This document shows, in pieces, positions 1,859 to 10,407 of a stretch of DNA of 10,407 bases (position 1 is the stretch's first letter; each line of letters opens with the position of its first letter). Position numbers and translations under genes: made by a program. The notes below the pieces were generated by a model. It had not been told where the DNA came from, ran no database searches, and saw only the letters and a list, made by a program, of their open reading frames with translations. Source of the DNA: Candidatus Shapirobacteria bacterium UBA1435 (GTDB lineage Bacteria; Patescibacteriota; Microgenomatia; UBA12405); assembly GCA_002329385.1 (NCBI GenBank), contig DCTR01000001.1, positions 1 to 10,407 on the forward strand, given 5' to 3'.

Positions 1859-3193
1859 TTATAGTTTTTCCAGTTTATTGAGAAGATAGGAGTTTATTTG
1901 ATCCATACTGATTCTGGTTTGTTCCATGGTATCCCGATCACGGACGGTGACGGTTTGGTCGTTTAGGGTTTGATAATCGACGACCAGGCACCATGGAGTG
2001 CCGATTTCGTCTTGCCTGCGGTATTTTTTACCAATGTTGCTGCTATCGTCGTAATCGACGGAGAAACGGGAAGAAAGACGTTGATATAGATCTTGGGCGA
2101 TTTTAACCAGTTCGGGTTTGTTGGCGGCTAAAGGGAAAACGGCTAGCTGGTATGCCGAAATTTTGGGGTTTATTTTCAACCATGTCCTGACTTCTTGGGA
2201 TGGGAGAACTTGTTCCTGGTAAGCGTCAAGGAGGAGGAAAAAGAAACTTCGGTCTACTCCGCCGCTGGTTTCGACTATCCAGGGAATATATTTTTCGTTG
2301 GTAAGCGGATCCTGATAGCTTAGATCCTGACCGCTAAATTTTGAGTGTTGAGAAAGGTCGTAGTCGGAGCGCCAGTGAATTCCTTCCATCTCCGCCCATC
2401 CCCAAGGGGCATGGTATTCGATGTCGAAGGCTTTTTTGGCGTAAAATGCCAGTTCATCGGAAGCGTGTTGTCGCAGCCGCAGGCTGTCTTTTTGATTGAA
2501 ATAATGGCCGTACCAATCAACCCGTTGCTGTTTCCAGTATTCGTACCACTGATCCATTTGGGAAGGGTGGACAAAGTATTGAATGTCCCATTGTTCGAAC
2601 TCGCGGGTACGGTAAAGGAAGTTCTTGGGGGTGATTTCATTGCGAAATGCCTTACCGATCTGGGCGATACCAAAGGGTATTTTTACCCGTGATGATTCGA
2701 TGACGTTTTTAAAATCGAGATAAATGGTTTGACAGGCTTCACCGCGCAGGTAAGCCGGGATCTTTTCGCCTTCAATCACGCCAATTTCGGTATGAAAAAG
2801 GATGTTGTATTTTCTTGGTTGGGTGAATTCCCCCTGGCATTCGGGACAACGGTTGACGTTGCCGATTAAATCGGGGCGGAATCTTTTGTGGCATTGTTTA
2901 CATTCCACCAGAAGATCGCCGAAATTGGAAACGTGACCGGAAGCTTCCCAGACTTTGGGGTGGGTGATTATTGAGCCGTCAATACCGACAACGTCAAGGC
3001 GACGAATTACATTTTCGGTCCACCAGCAGTTTTTCCAATTGTTTTTCATTAGGGAGCCGACGGGACCGTAGTCATAAAAGCCTTGTATTCCTCCGTATAT
3101 TTCGGAATTTTGGAAAATAATGCCGCGTCTTTTGCAAAGGGCGGTGATTTTGGAAACCAGGTCGTTTTGGTTGTTGTCTGCCATAGTTTTCAT
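1859..3193 (-). CDS. glyS: Glycyl-tRNA synthetase, class II homodimeric type
   Basis: This cytoplasmic enzyme charges tRNA-Gly with glycine. At 444 residues it matches the compact homodimeric (eukaryote/archaea/Gram-positive-like) GlyRS, not the tetrameric GlyQ/GlyS enzyme. Motifs in order are the N-terminal YGPVG (42-46), SGHVSNFGD (85-93), a zinc-ribbon insert with C98-x2-C101 and C116-x2-C119, class II motif 2 around FRNEITP (183-189) and REFEQWD (197-203), and motif 3 with ETSGGVDRS (308-316). The anticodon-binding domain occupies about 340-444 and includes KYRRQDEIGTPW and TVRDRDTMEQTRI. The start is ATG at 3193; a second in-frame ATG at 3184 would remove three residues. Neither has a Shine-Dalgarno sequence. 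The gene has its own consensus promoter and a T-box leader, so it is probably induced when uncharged tRNA-Gly accumulates. The enzyme identity is secure. Confidence 0.97.
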   Translation of the reverse strand: MKTMADNNQNDLVSKITALCKRRGIIFQNSEIYGGIQGFYDYGPVGSLMKNNWKNCWWTENVIRRLDVVGIDGSIITHPKVWEASGHVSNFGDLLVECKQCHKRFRPDLIGNVNRCPECQGEFTQPRKYNILFHTEIGVIEGEKIPAYLRGEACQTIYLDFKNVIESSRVKIPFGIAQIGKAFRNEITPKNFLYRTREFEQWDIQYFVHPSQMDQWYEYWKQQRVDWYGHYFNQKDSLRLRQHASDELAFYAKKAFDIEYHAPWGWAEMEGIHWRSDYDLSQHSKFSGQDLSYQDPLTNEKYIPWIVETSGGVDRSFFFLLLDAYQEQVLPSQEVRTWLKINPKISAYQLAVFPLAANKPELVKIAQDLYQRLSSRFSVDYDDSSNIGKKYRRQDEIGTPWCLVVDYQTLNDQTVTVRDRDTMEQTRISMDQINSYLLNKLEKL

Positions 3194-3204
3194 TGATGTA
3201 AACT

Positions 3205-3299
3205 TTAGGGACGCAGACTCAAACCGCGCGGTTCCACCCTAATTGTTCTGTAAAGACACAGAACCACTTAATTTAGATGTAAAAAGGTTGCCAAGCCTA
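3205..3299 (-). promoter_or_regulatory. T-box leader (tRNA-Gly-responsive), very short form
   Basis: T-box RNAs sense the ratio of charged to uncharged tRNA and control synthetase genes. The leader carries the T-box signature AGGGUGGAACCGCG (3240-3227). Its flanks form the antiterminator-type fold: UUAGGG (3242-3237) pairs with CCCUAA (3210-3205), GCG (3229-3227) can pair with CGU (3213-3211), and the intervening bulge starts with UGGA (3236-3233). UGGA pairs with UCCA, the 3' end of bacterial tRNA-Gly with discriminator U. Just 5' is a 7-bp hairpin, GUUCUGU (3264-3258) with ACAGAAC (3251-3245). At the extreme 5' end AGG/CCU (3298-3296 and 3287-3285) would close a loop CUUGGCAA holding a GGC glycine codon (3292-3290). 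A full Stem I of 80-100 nt is not present. No terminator with a U-run precedes glyS. The T-box identity is strong; the output mechanism is unknown. Confidence 0.88.
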
Positions 3300-3305
3300 G
3301 ATGAT

Positions 3306-3335
3306 ATTATATTTTTTTTTGCCAGTGATTGTCAA
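3306..3335 (-). promoter_or_regulatory. Consensus sigma-70-type promoter for glyS
   Basis: On the minus strand TTGACA (3335-3330) and TATAAT (3311-3306) both match consensus at every position, with an 18-base spacer that ends in nine consecutive A. The expected start site is about 3299-3298, just 5' of the AGG that begins the predicted specifier hairpin. That places the whole T-box fold inside the transcript and leaves a leader of about 105 nt before the glyS ATG. The promoter begins 10 bases after the recO stop codon. I saw no terminator hairpin between recO and this promoter. Confidence 0.85.
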
Positions 3336-3345
3336 TCGAATTTGT

Positions 3346-3906
3346 TTAGGCAAAGAGCTTGTTGCTTTCCATTGGCTTCTCGATAATCGACTCGGTAAAT
3401 TTTTTGATTAACCTTTGGGTAGATTGGTAGTTTTTGGAGAGAAAAGTGGTGTTGATTTCCGGGGGAATGCCGAAGCCAAGTTGATTGAGCAAATCGATCT
3501 CGGTTTGGATAAATAGGTGGACGTGGTTAGAATTGATGGCGTTGATGGCGTTTTTGACTAGGTAGAAAACATTATCGATTTGTTGGTTTTCGGCAATAAG
3601 CTGGTTGATGGTCTCGAGCAGGTAAAACATCAGATTTATCTGGGCGAGATTTTTTGATTTAGACAGAAAAGAGGCGATAGTCGTGCTTTCGTTTACCCAA
3701 AATCTTTGATTTTTTTGATAGACAGAGAATTTGGAGAGATTGCCAAGTTGAAGTGAACCAAGTCGTCGACTGCGGATATTTTTGGCGCCTTTGGCCAGGG
3801 CGGTGATCTTGCCTTGGCTTTGGGTAAGCAGGGTGACTTCGATGTCGGAGTCGGCAACTGTTCTTTTGCCGATAACGATGGCGATAAGGCTATGGTAACG
3901 CTCCAT
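3346..3906 (-). CDS. recO: DNA repair protein RecO, compact form without zinc finger
   Basis: RecO binds single-stranded DNA and SSB and works with RecR to load RecA during gap repair. The N-terminal OB-fold is clear: DSDIEVTLLTQSQGKI (19-34), ALAKGAK (36-42), the basic SRRLGSLQLG patch (46-55) and a VYQ strand near 62. The helical C-terminal domain follows, with TEIDLLNQLGFG (135-146) matching the family's LLxLLGFG helix. The protein is 186 residues against about 240-250 usually. It has no cysteine at all, so the CxxC zinc-finger segment that normally follows LGFG is absent. The end, EKPMESNKLF (176-185), resembles the usual RecO C-terminus (GRPLKSRRFL type), which suggests internal shortening and not truncation. 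The ATG (3906) directly abuts the DUF4012 stop, giving TAAATG, and no Shine-Dalgarno sequence is seen. Confidence 0.84.
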   Translation of the reverse strand: MERYHSLIAIVIGKRTVADSDIEVTLLTQSQGKITALAKGAKNIRSRRLGSLQLGNLSKFSVYQKNQRFWVNESTTIASFLSKSKNLAQINLMFYLLETINQLIAENQQIDNVFYLVKNAINAINSNHVHLFIQTEIDLLNQLGFGIPPEINTTFLSKNYQSTQRLIKKFTESIIEKPMESNKLFA

Positions 3907-5900: not shown

Positions 5901-6572
5901 TTACCACTTAGAAAGCATGGCAACCGGAGTTTTGAAGAGGATGACAATCTCTTGCAAAAAAGAACGGTTTTGAACATATTCGGAATCAAGTTTGGCCCTT
6001 TGTTCGAAAGGGACTTCATTTCGTCCGGAGGTTTGCCATGGGCCGGTAATGCCCGGTTTAACCGATCTGATATCTTGAATATATCTTTTGGTGTGGGGAT
6101 ATTTTTGTTCGTATTCACGCAATTCTTCTTCGCGGTAAGCCCTTGGACCGACCAGACTCATTTGGCCGGGAAGGACATTAAATAAAAGCTGGGGAAATTC
6201 GTCGATAGTCAGAGAACGGAGAATTTTGCCGACGGGGGTGATCCGTGGGTCTTCGCTCATGGGTAATTTCCAGCCGTTTTCCTTGTATTTTTTCCAGAGT
6301 TCCGGGTAGTCTTGCTGAAGTCTTTTGTCGTTGTCGCCGACAAACATGGTTCGGAATTTATACATGGTGAAGGGACGACTACCCTCCCCCACCCTTTGTT
6401 GTTTAAAAAAAATCGGGCCAGAAGAAGTCAGTTTGACAAGGGCGGCGGTGACAACCATAAGCGGGGAAAAGATAACAAGAAGGATGATTGAGCCGGCGAT
6501 GTCGATGGTTCTTTTAAAGACACGAAAAAGCCATCTTCTTTGGCGGAGAAATTTTTTTTTGGGTCTATTCAT
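5901..6572 (-). CDS. Polyprenyl-phosphate sugar-1-phosphate transferase (initiating glycosyltransferase)
   Basis: This bacterial sugar transferase (PF02397 type) moves a sugar-1-phosphate from a nucleotide sugar to a polyprenyl phosphate at the inner membrane face, starting a surface glycan. I place the start at ATG 6572, giving 223 residues. This start overlaps the upstream TGA by four bases (ATGA) and has AAGGG (6582-6578) five bases upstream. A longer frame from 6647 would overlap the upstream gene by 79 bases. Features are a basic N-terminus (1-21), a hydrophobic membrane or re-entrant helix (about 24-47), the block KQQRVGEG to YKFRTM (57-76), the catalytic Asp-Glu pair in TIDEFPQL (D124, E125), GQMSLVGPR (136-144) and KPGITGPWQTSGR (172-184). 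It lacks the extra N-terminal membrane region of WbaP/WcaJ-like enzymes, so it is the short monotopic form. The sugar cannot be told from sequence. Confidence 0.93.
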   Translation of the reverse strand: MNRPKKKFLRQRRWLFRVFKRTIDIAGSIILLVIFSPLMVVTAALVKLTSSGPIFFKQQRVGEGSRPFTMYKFRTMFVGDNDKRLQQDYPELWKKYKENGWKLPMSEDPRITPVGKILRSLTIDEFPQLLFNVLPGQMSLVGPRAYREEELREYEQKYPHTKRYIQDIRSVKPGITGPWQTSGRNEVPFEQRAKLDSEYVQNRSFLQEIVILFKTPVAMLSKW

Positions 6573-7648
6573 AGGTGCCCTTGGACAAATTTTGTTAAGT
6601 TTAGCACAAATGCTTTTTCGGAAAATTTGTTGGCATTTTCGATACAATCTTTGGGATTAAAACGATAACTGTCAAATCGTCGCAGGGCTGATTTTAGCGA
6701 CTCGACTGTTTGTCGTTCGAAAAAGAGTCCGGTTCTGCCGTCAATGACTGTTTCGGTTTGCCCGCCTTGTCGATAGGCGATAACCGGTCTGCCGCAGGCT
6801 TGGGCTTCAAGAGAAGTGAGACCAAAGTCTTCAACTTGGGGGATAAGTAATGCCCGACAGTGTTGGTAGAAGCCAAGGAGTTCGGAGTGATCGACGTTGC
6901 CGAGAAGCTCGATGTTGGGACTATGGAGTTTTTTTATTAACCGGGAGAGGTAGCCGAATTGACGTCCATTACCGACTATTTTTAGCTGGAGGCCAGACTG
7001 GTGGCAGGCATGGATGGCCAGGTCAATTTTTTTATATGGGACGAGACGGGAAACAATAAGGAAGTAGCCGCCTGGGGATGTTTTTTGCAGAGGATGAAAG
7101 AGAGACATGTCGATGCCAGGGTAGATGACAGTTGGCCTTTTGGCGTATTGGTCGATAAATCTATTTTGGACAGTGTATGAGTCGCAGATGAGATGATCGG
7201 GACGGTTGATGGCGATGGTGTCCAGGCGGCGGTAGAATTTGGCCAGCGGCTGGAGATAAAAAGGGTGCTGTCGATAAACGTGACGGTTGATATTAAAAAA
7301 GTAACAAAAATATTTGACTGAAGGAGGGGTAATAAGAAAATGGCCGACAGTCGAGGTGAAAGAAATGACAATGTCGTATTCGGAGAAGTCGAATTGTTCG
7401 ACTGCCAATGGAAAAAGAGGTGAATATGGCAGTGGAAAAAGTGGCAGTTTGGGTAGGGAGTCTATAATGCTTGAGAAAATACGATAATGTTTTGGCAACC
7501 AAGGTGTTTGTGATGGGTTGTGGGCGATGGTGTAAAGGTCGGCTTTAGGGAAGGCTTGAAGAGAGGCTAGAAGCACCCTTTCGGCACCTCCCCACTGGTT
7601 GAGCCAGTCGTAAAAGATGGCAACTCTTTGGTGGTCGGTTTTTGGCAC
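6569..7648 (-). CDS. GT4-family glycosyltransferase (retaining, GT-B fold)
   Basis: The 359-residue cytoplasmic enzyme would transfer a sugar from a nucleotide sugar onto a growing lipid-linked glycan. The N-terminal Rossmann half opens with VAIFYDWLNQWGGAERVL (9-26), including the glycine pair that lines the active site. The C-terminal half has YPGID (176-180), SRLVPYKKIDLAI (200-212), VGNG (225-228) and the EX7E catalytic motif E273-DFGLTSL-E281, then GRPVIAYRQGG (286-296) and DGRTGLFF (303-310). The start is GTG (7648-7646), sharing one base with the TAG of the upstream glycosyltransferase. The TGA stop overlaps the start of the sugar phosphotransferase gene. Opening sequences of this type occur in mannosyl- and other hexosyltransferases, but the donor and acceptor are not predictable here. 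Confidence 0.92.
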   Translation of the reverse strand: MPKTDHQRVAIFYDWLNQWGGAERVLLASLQAFPKADLYTIAHNPSQTPWLPKHYRIFSSIIDSLPKLPLFPLPYSPLFPLAVEQFDFSEYDIVISFTSTVGHFLITPPSVKYFCYFFNINRHVYRQHPFYLQPLAKFYRRLDTIAINRPDHLICDSYTVQNRFIDQYAKRPTVIYPGIDMSLFHPLQKTSPGGYFLIVSRLVPYKKIDLAIHACHQSGLQLKIVGNGRQFGYLSRLIKKLHSPNIELLGNVDHSELLGFYQHCRALLIPQVEDFGLTSLEAQACGRPVIAYRQGGQTETVIDGRTGLFFERQTVESLKSALRRFDSYRFNPKDCIENANKFSEKAFVLNLTKFVQGHL

Positions 7649-8775
7649 TACTGTTTAGAGTAATCGGTTAGTATTTTTGAGTAGACATCGAGGGTTTGGA
7701 TGGCGGTTTTTTGCCAGGAATATTTTGACAGTTGCTGGCGACCAAGACGAATAAGCCGTTGCCGTAATTTGGGATTGTTTTTCAGTCGATGGATTTGCTG
7801 GGCCAACTCTTTTGGTAGGTTGGGATGGAAGTACAAGACCGAGTCGCCATAGACTTCAGGAAGACAACTTGAGTTTGAGGAGATAACGGGACAGTTAAGA
7901 GCCATGGCTTCGAGTCCGGTGAGGCTAAAACCTTCCATAAAAGAGGGATGGACCAGGGCCAGGGCGTGGGCGTAGACGTTCTTAAACTGTTTGTCTGGCA
8001 GGAAACCAAGAAAGTCAACGCGGCTGGCAAGGTTGAGGAATTTGACTTGTTCTTGAAGTTGAGAGGCAAAGTGGTTTCGGGCACAGATAATCTTAAGGCG
8101 GATGTCGGGTACCATGGTTAGAGCGTCGAGAACAGCTTTGATGTTCTTGTGAGGGTAGAGATTGCCAGTGTAGATAAGATAAGGGTCTGGTTTGAGGATG
8201 GGAGGAGAGGGACAGGTGAGAAAATTGGGGTCAACGGCTTCGTGGGTGACGGTAATTTTTTGTTTTGGCTGATGAAAATGGTCAACCAGGTAAGCTTTCC
8301 AGAAATGGCTAGGAACAATTATATGATTTGAAGAGAAAATATTGAGTTCGGTAACCAGCCGATAGGCGAAATATTTTGGCCAATAAAGAATCGGATTTCT
8401 GGTGGTGGTTTTTTGGCCGCGGAAGAAATGTTTAATAAGATCGTGGATAGTGATGACCGAAGGCTGGCGGTAAAGTATTGGCTTGTTAAAATGGGTGAAG
8501 TGGACTAGATCGGGGTGAAGAGATTTGATTAACTTTGGCAGTTCGAGCTGTTCGGAGAGTGAATAATGGGAAATGCGGGTGGGGATAATTTGATAGCGGT
8601 TTTTTTGGTCGGCTTTGACACTGTTGGCATCTTTTTGGTTGACAATAAGAGAAAAATTGTAGCTGTTGAAGTCTGAAAGCCGGGAAAGGGCGGAAAGTAG
8701 GTTTTGAGTGTAACGGCCGATGCCGGTGTGGGTTGGGCCGTATAGCCTGGCATCGATAACTATATGAGGTTTCAT
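7648..8775 (-). CDS. GT4-family glycosyltransferase, mannosyltransferase-like
   Basis: The 375-residue GT-B enzyme starts IVIDARLYGPTHTGIGRYTQNLL (5-27), typical of GT4 enzymes where TGIGRY binds the acceptor or donor phosphate. Further motifs are TIHDL (109-113), VPSHFWK (154-160), YTGNLYPHKN (202-211), FLGFLPD (255-261) and the catalytic EX7E pair E281-GFSLTGL-E289, then CPVISSNSSCLPEVYGD (295-311). This pattern resembles mannosyl- or rhamnosyl-adding GT4 enzymes of O-antigen loci, but that is only a resemblance. The ATG at 8775 follows the stop of the GT2 gene after three bases, and the TAG overlaps the GTG of the next gene by one base. All four glycosyltransferases are therefore packed as one transcription unit. 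No Shine-Dalgarno sequence is visible. Confidence 0.93.
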   Translation of the reverse strand: MKPHIVIDARLYGPTHTGIGRYTQNLLSALSRLSDFNSYNFSLIVNQKDANSVKADQKNRYQIIPTRISHYSLSEQLELPKLIKSLHPDLVHFTHFNKPILYRQPSVITIHDLIKHFFRGQKTTTRNPILYWPKYFAYRLVTELNIFSSNHIIVPSHFWKAYLVDHFHQPKQKITVTHEAVDPNFLTCPSPPILKPDPYLIYTGNLYPHKNIKAVLDALTMVPDIRLKIICARNHFASQLQEQVKFLNLASRVDFLGFLPDKQFKNVYAHALALVHPSFMEGFSLTGLEAMALNCPVISSNSSCLPEVYGDSVLYFHPNLPKELAQQIHRLKNNPKLRQRLIRLGRQQLSKYSWQKTAIQTLDVYSKILTDYSKQ

Positions 8776-8778
8776 GGA

Positions 8779-9729
8779 TTAAAGGTATTTTGCCTTGAAG
8801 CATCTGGCCTGTTCGAGCAGGGTAATACCAAACAGGACCAGGTGGCGAATGATGGGGTGATAATGGGGGAAAAGGTGTTGCTGGTAGAAAATTCTCATGG
8901 CCTGGGTGGAGGCCTTGGCGATCTTGATTTTGGTTTGGCGAGTGGCAGAAGAAAGCTGGCGTGTTTGTTTTTTGATGCCAGAGGATATGCCCTGGAAGTG
9001 CTTGACCGAGCATCTGGGGTAGTAGTAAAGGCGGTAGCCTTGTTGTTTCAGCCGGTAACAGAAATCGATGTCTTCGCCGTAGAAAAAATACTGTTCGTTC
9101 CACCAGCCAAGTTTATCGCCGACCGGGCGACGGATGGCAAAGAAGGCGCCAACACAGGAGTCGATTTGGTGAGTGGTGGAAAGGTCAAGGTGGCCAAGGA
9201 AATAATTATTAAAAATAGCAGAACGGGGGAAAAGTTTGTTTAGACCGGTAAAATGGGCGAAGGCTGACCAGGGGGTGGGGAAACCGCGGTGGCATTCCGG
9301 CTGGAGCCGACCGGTTTTGACCAGGACAACCTGGCAGGTGACAGCATCTGCTTTATGGTGGCTATCAAAAAAACCGATTGTTTTTTGGAGAGTATCGGTG
9401 TTGACGATAGTGTCAGGGTTTAGAAAAAGGACGAAATCCGAAGAAGAATGGACGAAGGATACCGCTTGATTATTGCCAGCGGCAAAGCCGCGATTTTGGC
9501 CTAAAGGTATCAGCTTGATTTGGGTGATGAGTTTGTGGGTGTTTTTGATCCTTTTTGCCAGGAGAAAGCTGTTATCGGTTGATTGGTTGTCGGCGACAAT
9601 AATCTCGACCCTGTCGGTGAGGGAAGAATTTAAAATTGATTTTAGGCATTGGGATAAATATTTGCCCGAATTGTAGTTGAGGATGATGACGGAGAGCCTA
9701 GGAGAGGTGTTGTTGGCAGATTTCTTCAT
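8779..9729 (-). CDS. GT2-family glycosyltransferase (GT-A fold, rhamnosyltransferase-like)
   Basis: The 316-residue enzyme has LSVIILNYNSGKYL (12-25), IIVADNQSTDNS (43-54), the conserved GQNRGFAAGNN (77-87) and a metal/nucleotide motif LNPDT (103-107) in place of classical DXD. FFYGEDIDFCYRLKQQGYRLYYYP (215-238) contains the presumed catalytic acidic residues, and H244 follows. This is the WbbL/rhamnosyltransferase-like branch of GT2, an inverting enzyme adding a sugar to a lipid-linked glycan on the cytoplasmic side. The donor is unknown. The C-terminal stretch of about 60 residues is basic and may associate with the membrane. The ATG at 9729 lies inside the 3' end of the preceding gene (32-base overlap). 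No alternative start exists between it and the first conserved strand, so this start is well supported. Confidence 0.92.
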   Translation of the reverse strand: MKKSANNTSPRLSVIILNYNSGKYLSQCLKSILNSSLTDRVEIIVADNQSTDNSFLLAKRIKNTHKLITQIKLIPLGQNRGFAAGNNQAVSFVHSSSDFVLFLNPDTIVNTDTLQKTIGFFDSHHKADAVTCQVVLVKTGRLQPECHRGFPTPWSAFAHFTGLNKLFPRSAIFNNYFLGHLDLSTTHQIDSCVGAFFAIRRPVGDKLGWWNEQYFFYGEDIDFCYRLKQQGYRLYYYPRCSVKHFQGISSGIKKQTRQLSSATRQTKIKIAKASTQAMRIFYQQHLFPHYHPIIRHLVLFGITLLEQARCFKAKYL

Positions 9730-10407
9730 AAATTTTGTTTAAACCTTCGACGCTTTTTTCGTAGGAATAACCTGCCTTTATCAGCTGGCGGGCGGCCATG
9801 CCGATTTGCTTTTGGCGAGCTGGTTGGCGGAGAAGTTTGATAGTTTCGGCGGCGGTTTGATCATATTGGCAGACGATAGCGTGTTGGCCGTTTTGGTAGG
9901 TGATGCCCCCCATGCCTTCGGGGGTGGTAATAATGGGCAATCCACAGGCCATGGCTTCAAGAAATTTATTACGGGTGCCGCCACCGCTACCCATGGGAGC
10001 GAGTAAAACCCAGCTGTAGTAGTAATAGTATTGCGGGTCTTTCGCTTGACCGTCGGCATCGGCTTCGGCAACGATAATGTCCTTACTAGTCAGATGGCCG
10101 TAGTATTCAGGGGAATTTCGGCCGATAATAAGCAGTCTGGCCTTGGGGATGTTTTTTTTGATTTGCGGCCAGAGGTCGGTGATAATCATGTCAACCGATT
10201 CCCGGTTTTGCATCCACTTCATGTTGGAGACACCAAAAAGGATTGACGGGAAGGGGCTTTTTTTGGTTTTTGGCCTGGATTCATAAAACTTACGATCGAC
10301 ACCATTTTGAAAAACCCTGATATCGTTACGACCGGTAACGCGGGAGATTAGTTTTTGATCGTCGATGCCGAAGGCAGTGACGGTGTGGGTGGTTTGCCAG
10401 TAGTGGG
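9698..10407 (-). CDS. GT4-family glycosyltransferase, 5' end beyond window
   Basis: The frame stays open to the window edge (first complete codon at 10405), giving 235 visible residues, so the internal ATG at 10222 is not the start. The visible part begins in the linker before the C-terminal GT-B half. VFQNGVDRKFY (31-41) matches the family's pre-domain NGVD motif, and ILFGVSNMKWMQN (55-67) corresponds to the usual phosphate-binding GNMxxxPN strand. DLWPQIKKNIPKARLLIIGR (77-96) follows, then APMGSGGGTRNKFLEAMACGLPIITT (136-161), the donor-binding region with the conserved Glu. This subfamily (Glyco_trans_1_4-like) occurs in exopolysaccharide loci. Five consecutive tyrosines lie just before the SWVLLAP strand. 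The TAG stop lies 32 bases inside the GT2 gene. The missing N-terminal half should lie at higher coordinates. Confidence 0.9.
   Translation of the reverse strand, partial: HYWQTTHTVTAFGIDDQKLISRVTGRNDIRVFQNGVDRKFYESRPKTKKSPFPSILFGVSNMKWMQNRESVDMIITDLWPQIKKNIPKARLLIIGRNSPEYYGHLTSKDIIVAEADADGQAKDPQYYYYYSWVLLAPMGSGGGTRNKFLEAMACGLPIITTPEGMGGITYQNGQHAIVCQYDQTAAETIKLLRQPARQKQIGMAARQLIKAGYSYEKSVEGLNKIYEEICQQHLS

Follow-up and report, generated by a model that had tools for sequence, protein, structure and literature searches.

The DNA analysed here, the window, is a stretch of 10,407 nucleotides (nt) from Candidatus Shapirobacteria bacterium UBA1435, in which recO (3906-3346), a leader and glyS, the gene for glycyl-tRNA synthetase, follow one another on the minus strand. 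Within the leader, upstream of glyS, lies a T-box at 3298-3205. An initial annotation made from the sequence had placed such an element before glyS at 3205..3299, and these coordinates hold, on the minus strand. In our reading, which we regard as probable, the element is a glycine-specific and probably translational T-box with a short Stem I and no Stem II, an architecture that occurs in several lineages of Patescibacteria. The host belongs to the Patescibacteria, as the initial annotation supposed, and stands close to Shapirobacteria: the 13 best-matching of the 80 glyS loci kept all belong to Shapirobacteria or Patescibacteria metagenome-assembled genomes, at 68-77% identity.

The T-box core of the glyS leader

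When the whole window was searched with cmscan, RF00230, the Rfam T-box family, was the only significant RNA family (3371-3204, minus strand, 47.1 bits, E 5.2e-8); the other match listed was CrcZ, at E 2.6. General T-box features are present (Table 1), with a UGGN bulge between helices A1 and A2 and the series AAGUG-Stem III-AA. The latter is the RRRNG-Stem III-AA arrangement described as a T-box discriminator feature in PMC7778990, and the 7-nt bulge agrees with the discriminator as presented in PMC7583486. The canonical form is seen in Stem III with RRRNG and AA on either side, in helices A1 and A2, and in the bulge UGGAACC. A1 is the 6-bp closing helix of the initial annotation, and the proposed match between the bulge and the tRNA end is borne out: UGGA is complementary to the UCCA end (discriminator U) of the host tRNA-Gly(UCC), whose gene is the only one for tRNA-Gly among the 32 of 33 tRNA matches inspected in the host assembly. 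Both tRNA-Gly genes seen in the relative G024 (GCC and UCC; genomes are given as G and loci as L numbers) also have discriminator U.

Transcription is predicted from the sequence to start at A3298, or at A3302, after a promoter that matches the TTGACA-18-TATAAT consensus at 12/12 positions. The end of A1 lies about 94 nt from the predicted +1 near 3298, close to the 95 nt first estimated, and Stem III about 33 nt from it. The unusual compactness described in the initial annotation stands, but the roughly 35 nt that precede the first solid hairpin are not empty: they can form a 3-bp hairpin presenting GGC-A, a specifier that the initial annotation had overlooked. Such a hairpin arises in 52/5000 dinucleotide shuffles of this 42-nt 5' stretch, and in 96/5000 with any GGN. 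This reduced Stem I measures 14 nt, with an 8-nt loop and neither kink-turn nor base helix. The linker that follows stays without a helix in the leader fold; in a longer RNA it pairs with the 5' strand of A1 in the OFF state and, when ON is forced, forms a weak helix of 4 bp. The glyS gene itself matches NF003211 at 559 bits (cut-off 312), and its start at 3184 agrees with relatives, in which the genes at L028, L033 and L237 open with MADN, MAEN and MSTN.

Table 1. Coordinates of the glyS leader and its surroundings in the window (folds and promoter are predictions)
Feature	Position	Strand	Basis or detail
glyS, glycyl-tRNA synthetase	1859..3184	-	likely start ATG 3184-3182 (MADNNQND...); longer open reading frame from 3193
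Sequestrator (OFF)	3176..3218	-	lowest-energy fold with coding sequence
Sequestrator helix GUCUGC/GCAGAC	3218-3213 with 3181-3176	-	surrounds start codon
Sequestrator helix AGUUU/AAACU	3204-3200 with 3189-3185	-	start codon in internal loop
Antisequestrator	3205..3242	-	Rfam alignment; lowest-energy fold of leader alone; forced ON fold
A1 UUAGGG/CCCUAA	3242-3237 with 3210-3205	-	6 bp
T-box bulge UGGAACC	3236-3230	-	7 nt
A2 GCGCGG/CUGCGU	3229-3224 with 3216-3211	-	6 bp, terminal G.U
Stem III GUUCUGUG-UCUU-UACAGAAC	3245..3264	-	folds; followed by AA (3244-3243)
Linker in Stem II's place	3265..3284	-	3' end AAGUG = RRRNG (3269-3265)
Reduced Stem I AGG-CUUGGCAA-CCU	3285..3298	-	AGG 3298-3296, loop CUUGGCAA 3295-3288, CCU 3287-3285
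Specifier codon GGC (glycine)	3290..3292	-	sequence; A3289 next
Sigma-70-type promoter	3306..3335	-	TTGACA (3335-3330), 18 nt, TATAAT (3311-3306)

Short Stem I's in related Patescibacteria

The glycine T-boxes of relatives, drawn from several lineages of Patescibacteria, have a Stem I of 30-34 nt made up of a base helix, a kink-turn, a short upper helix and an apical loop with GGC or GGA. Where the initial annotation saw almost no Stem I, these relatives have a short, covarying one that carries the codon in its apical loop, and we accordingly read the element as a T-box with a short Stem I of this kind and no Stem II. A motif finder for the series base helix, 3 nt, GA, upper helix, loop, GA, base helix, blind to GGC, was applied to 32 unique candidate cores at most 600 nt upstream of glyS (L237 was left out by the filter). 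With a score limit of 14, chosen after the first motif results were known, a kink-turn short Stem I was found in 20 of the 32 cores and in 77 of 6400 shuffled sequences. The loop codon of the 20 is GGC in 19 and GGA in one, a count biased by the retrieval of some loci with a pattern containing TGGC; among the motif-bearing cores retrieved by protein or Rfam alone (L017, L028, L037, L038, L054 twice, L064, L078, and L057/L061 as copies L231/L223) GGC stands in 9/10 and GGA in 1/10. The 12 cores below the limit include the window itself and six with other small or indistinct Stem I's (L026, L032, L060, L249, L250, L251); the Stem I of L060/L261 is indistinct, and a motif match in L251 (score 12.6) was judged spurious. 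Three more (L234, L241, L242) show the motif by eye with one mismatch, missed by the finder, L050 from Ktedonobacteria has an apparently long Stem I by eye, and L084 was dismissed as a chance core and no T-box.

Comparison of these sequences suggests that the relatives' Stem I is strongly covarying. Alignments of Stem I only were used, since whole-leader MAFFT misaligned it. In alignment A7 (21 Stem I's, of which L255, L257, L260, L264 and L278 come from the phylum search described below and were not used in its model), covariation is 0.783 against 0.244 in shuffled alignments, with 0/500 reaching the observed value, and when the partners are slid the value stays at or below 0.255; an alignment of leaders was among the checks that the initial annotation had proposed, and it does yield covarying pairs. 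Alignment A6 (15 sequences; L028, L038, L213 and L252a failed to align, and L037, L234, L238a, L239, L240 and L252b were never entered) gives 0.777 against 0.255, again with 0/500. Because the aligned sequences had been selected as motif carriers that could be aligned, the percentage paired is inflated, and the evidence of covariation in A7 lies in 45 both-sided cells, where 14.6 are expected; how many pairs show such change is unremarkable in itself, 55/500 shuffles reaching that number. Among 25 segmented Stem I's (26 were typed, L245 being absent from the 25), the three pairs adjoining the kink-turn are standard in 75/75 cells and the outer base pair in 18/25; in the upper helix the pair beside GA is standard in 13/25, the next in 24/25 and the following two in 50/50. 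The loop, as segmented, has 5 to 11 nt.

Measured over 33 kink-turn glycine Stem I's (tandem copies within a leader included; L258 and L054b are among them and outside A7), the distance from Stem I to the T-box sequence is only 26-66 nt, Stem III included, which is too short to accommodate a Stem II domain. When 28 such stretches were folded (that of the window copy and 27 from the set of 33), two gave no helix, 22 gave one and four gave two; where a helix formed (26 stretches), RRRNG is found close to the 5' side in 22 cases and AA at the 3' side in 21. Stem III is absent from L213 (the same locus as L054, Amesbacteria) and L214 (G186), both at 0.0 kcal/mol, and likewise from the stretch of L026 (G010). 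In L214, the smallest relative in the analysis, the element that begins with Stem I and closes with A1 is about 87 nt long (31+26+30). Tandem glycine T-boxes occur in L238 (G241), L252 (G044) and L213, the L238 pair lying upstream of glyA.

As read from the sequences, the loop codon appears to follow the regulated gene across relatives. The four loci with CCC before proS all have UGGU: L012, L030 and L034, in the last of which proS comes second, were picked up by the finder, and L002 was recognized by eye. L013 also has CCC in its loop. GAC occurs with UGGC before aspartate--tRNA(Asn) ligase (L029). ACC precedes thrS, by eye (L248, G118), in a plain hairpin without kink-turn and with the T-box sequence UGGA. 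GGC stands before glyA, the gene for serine hydroxymethyltransferase, which makes glycine, in L238 and L247. Locus L002 is the host genome's second T-box (C6:5767-5916, with two N's inside), upstream of proS; a specifier in a proS hairpin (GACCAA) was considered and rejected, the proS codon being the CCC in the Stem I loop. The Pro and Tyr leaders have a longer stretch after Stem I and look Class III-like. A tRNA-Tyr(GUA) gene lies downstream of the T-box in five of eight loci scanned (L010, L015, L016, L018, L022), and UAC is seen by eye in the Stem I loop of L015, L016, L018 and L022; the next protein gene encodes an ArgE/DapE-like hydrolase at L015 and has no NCBIfam match at L022.

Wider searches, in which the distribution was sampled in part of the phylum, indicate that T-boxes occur commonly within this patescibacterial class. 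RF00230 matches at E<=1e-4 in 183 of 373 genomes of the class and exceeds its gathering score in 18, so annotation based on the cut-off would miss most of these T-boxes; that score, 93 bits, is a curator's cut-off and no structural feature. Many of the top hits are at least 245 nt long, so that long Stem I's also exist in the class, and none of the long hits (L116-L144) is among the 32 glyS cores. Model R1, built from 10 relatives and from no sequence of the window's own genome, gives the window a score of 25.8 bits (E 4e-5) and matches at E<=0.01 in 39 of 379 genomes of the phylum, the window's included. Of its 40 matches, 30 loci were examined; 14 lie before glyS and the other 16 are without a glyS match. 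Eight of the glyS-upstream loci were new: L255, L257, L258, L260, L264 and L278 have a kink-turn Stem I by eye, L267 has a hairpin without kink-turn, and L270 is unclear. Our search found no T-box literature on Patescibacteria or the candidate phyla radiation (CPR); it was thin on subscription papers, so an earlier description is possible.

Closer at hand, 43 genomes of the order, the host's included, were scanned, and an extended match to the leader appeared only in G016 (80% over query positions 10-77, E 4.7e-9), and G036 matched over 21 nt of the T-box core alone; no phage relative of the leader was found. The G016 locus, L237, is the nearest relative and has the hairpin AAAGUAGGGGAUUGGCUCCCUAUUU (-10.0 kcal/mol), also without a kink-turn, and its Stem III differs from that of the window by a compensatory U-A to A-U change. 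Judged by sequence, the window hairpin would be homologous to that of G016 and much weaker (-0.5 against -10.0 kcal/mol). The loop sequence of the window copy recurs on a kink-turn Stem I in L227.

The reduced Stem I and the control of glyS

Folded alone, leaders of 94 and 114 nt have as their lowest-energy structure the small hairpin, Stem III and A1/A2, with the hairpin at a pair probability of 0.27-0.38. A 139-nt RNA that includes coding sequence is predicted to prefer the OFF fold (-30.4 kcal/mol) to a forced-A1 ON fold (-28.8 kcal/mol) by 1.6 kcal/mol, and the two states are mutually exclusive because GUCUGC overlaps the A2 3' strand. Since the longer RNA is thus predicted to fold by default around the start codon of glyS, control in the window is probably translational. 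An intrinsic terminator was considered and rejected, the U-run being absent after A1. A U-run does lie downstream in 20 of the 33 kink-turn cases, as counted with a rough regular expression, and many relatives are therefore likely transcriptional. In the fold of L237, the A1 3' strand pairs with purine-rich sequence that precedes the start codon, and L028, L033 and L037 look alike by eye.

By its anatomy the window element would work like a T-box, and we infer tRNA binding, its dependence on charging and the direction of regulation as follows. GGC in the apical loop of the minimal Stem I would pair with the anticodon of uncharged tRNA-Gly, and UGGA in the bulge with the UCCA end of the same tRNA, stabilizing A1/A2. 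The A2 3' strand could then no longer pair with codons just inside glyS, so that the start codon would be left open and more synthetase made. With charged tRNA the 3' end could not dock, the sequestrator would form and glyS would be off.

At the far side of recO, the minus strand of 5901-10405 holds a run of genes that, judged by eye from the translations, resembles a sugar transferase and glycosyltransferases.

Relation to known T-box classes

Four T-box classes are described in PMC10482949, and according to that account codon-anticodon pairing is reinforced by the module that binds the tRNA elbow (IDTM), by Stem II, or by both. The family to which the window copy belongs fits neither Class II nor Class III. 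Class II, as described there for B. subtilis glyQS, is likewise glycine-specific, has a linker in place of Stem II and shares the same discriminator domain; it differs in its long Stem I with an IDTM, where Stem I has 14 nt in the window and 30-34 nt in relatives. We consider it most improbable that the window carries an ordinary Class II element with its long Stem I upstream of the presumed promoter. The Rfam match does reach back to 3371 for the first model position, yet the stretch to that point runs into recO, includes the promoter and has 3 nt in place of 91 Stem I positions of the model, and relatives have a complete short Stem I directly before the same core. Among the outcomes that the initial annotation had named in advance as refuting were a long Stem I upstream of the promoter and a signature not conserved in relatives; recO ends at 3346 with no long Stem I seen upstream of the promoter, and the signature is conserved. 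A Class III element of the actinobacterial ileS type with an unrecognized Stem II is also very unlikely, if slightly less so. Class III (Nocardia farcinica ileS; PMC10482949, PMC7583486) is alike in its short Stem I without IDTM and its apical-loop specifier, already known from actinobacterial ileS, and the short kink-turn Stem I recurs in relatives; the proS leader of the host's own genome has, by eye, a longer stretch and an extra hairpin after Stem I. Its specifier loop has 5-6 nt, compared with 8 nt in the window and the segmented range in relatives. As those sources describe it, Class III requires a Stem II with an S-turn and a IIA/B pseudoknot, whereas the spacing and the folded stretches set out above, most of them with a single helix, argue that the present family is without one; the amino acid here is moreover glycine, and many relatives are apparently transcriptional. 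The novelty lies in the combination of an apical-loop specifier with the absence of Stem II. As for RF00230, the T-box sequence, A1/A2 and Stem III are shared, as is the kink-turn base of Stem I in relatives, and the distal Stem I is missing.

A different kind of alternative is that an ancestral kink-turn short T-box is decaying in this genome, its Stem I eroded and tRNA identity no longer read. Several observations weigh against a working element in the window. The covariance-model search that the initial annotation had proposed does return a match to the Rfam T-box, at a score below the gathering cut-off of 93; the 150-nt leader is no more stable than shuffles (z -0.51); and the window copy is negative in the motif finder. 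The hairpin, with its 3 bp and no kink-turn, is marginal by itself at -0.5 kcal/mol, and it is not kept once coding sequence is added: its pair probability falls below 0.02 and the specifier G's pair with glyS codons (probability unpaired 0.05-0.09). The sequestrator beats shuffles only moderately, with 41/1000 mononucleotide shuffles of the segment folding equally well, its inner helix AGUUU/AAACU is common to the ON and OFF folds, and no Shine-Dalgarno sequence is evident in the leader. Nor was tRNA-Gly(GCC) found in the host's 94%-complete assembly, or tRNA-Phe, in the same inspection of 32 of 33 tRNA matches; those genes adjoin in G024, so one assembly gap may explain both. The element also seems easily lost: TATAAT or TAAAAT lies only 5-7 nt before ATG in 10 of the 11 nearest T-box-less glyS genes (L036, L040-L048; the exception is L039), whose mRNA therefore looks leaderless, and the T-box seems to have been gained or lost between the glyS promoter and the start codon. 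Because the window hairpin is homologous to that of G016 and yet much weaker, we give decay some weight, while holding it to be unlikely. Stem III, its RRRNG/AA flanks, the bulge, A1 and A2 are intact, with the compensatory change relative to G016; the leader is 80% identical to that of G016 from the hairpin through the T-box; and G016, together with L032, L249, L250, L251 and L267 (by eye), lacks the kink-turn yet has kept a GGC hairpin.

A functional short T-box therefore remains our preferred reading, and the compact form in the window is explained by relatives that carry a short Stem I without IDTM or Stem II. The initial annotation had offered a new structural class or a stripped-down relic; the former suits the family and further reduction suits the window copy, which would be the most reduced specifier domain known to us. 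The family is, we think probably, a candidate fifth class of T-box, defined by a short Stem I with an apical-loop specifier and by the lack of IDTM and Stem II, found in Patescibacteria, employing both termination and translation, and in some lineages dispensing with Stem III. Such RNAs would hold the tRNA at no more than two points, by codon-anticodon pairing and by pairing of NCCA with the bulge. A family without IDTM or Stem II would either contradict the published view or reveal another kind of reinforcement, and its apparently transcriptional members would have to read the tRNA under a time limit. The lack of T-box literature for this class of bacteria is perhaps due to a cut-off set on long forms. 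At about 87 nt in the smallest relative, the family would offer a minimal construct for testing what a riboswitch requires in order to read a tRNA.
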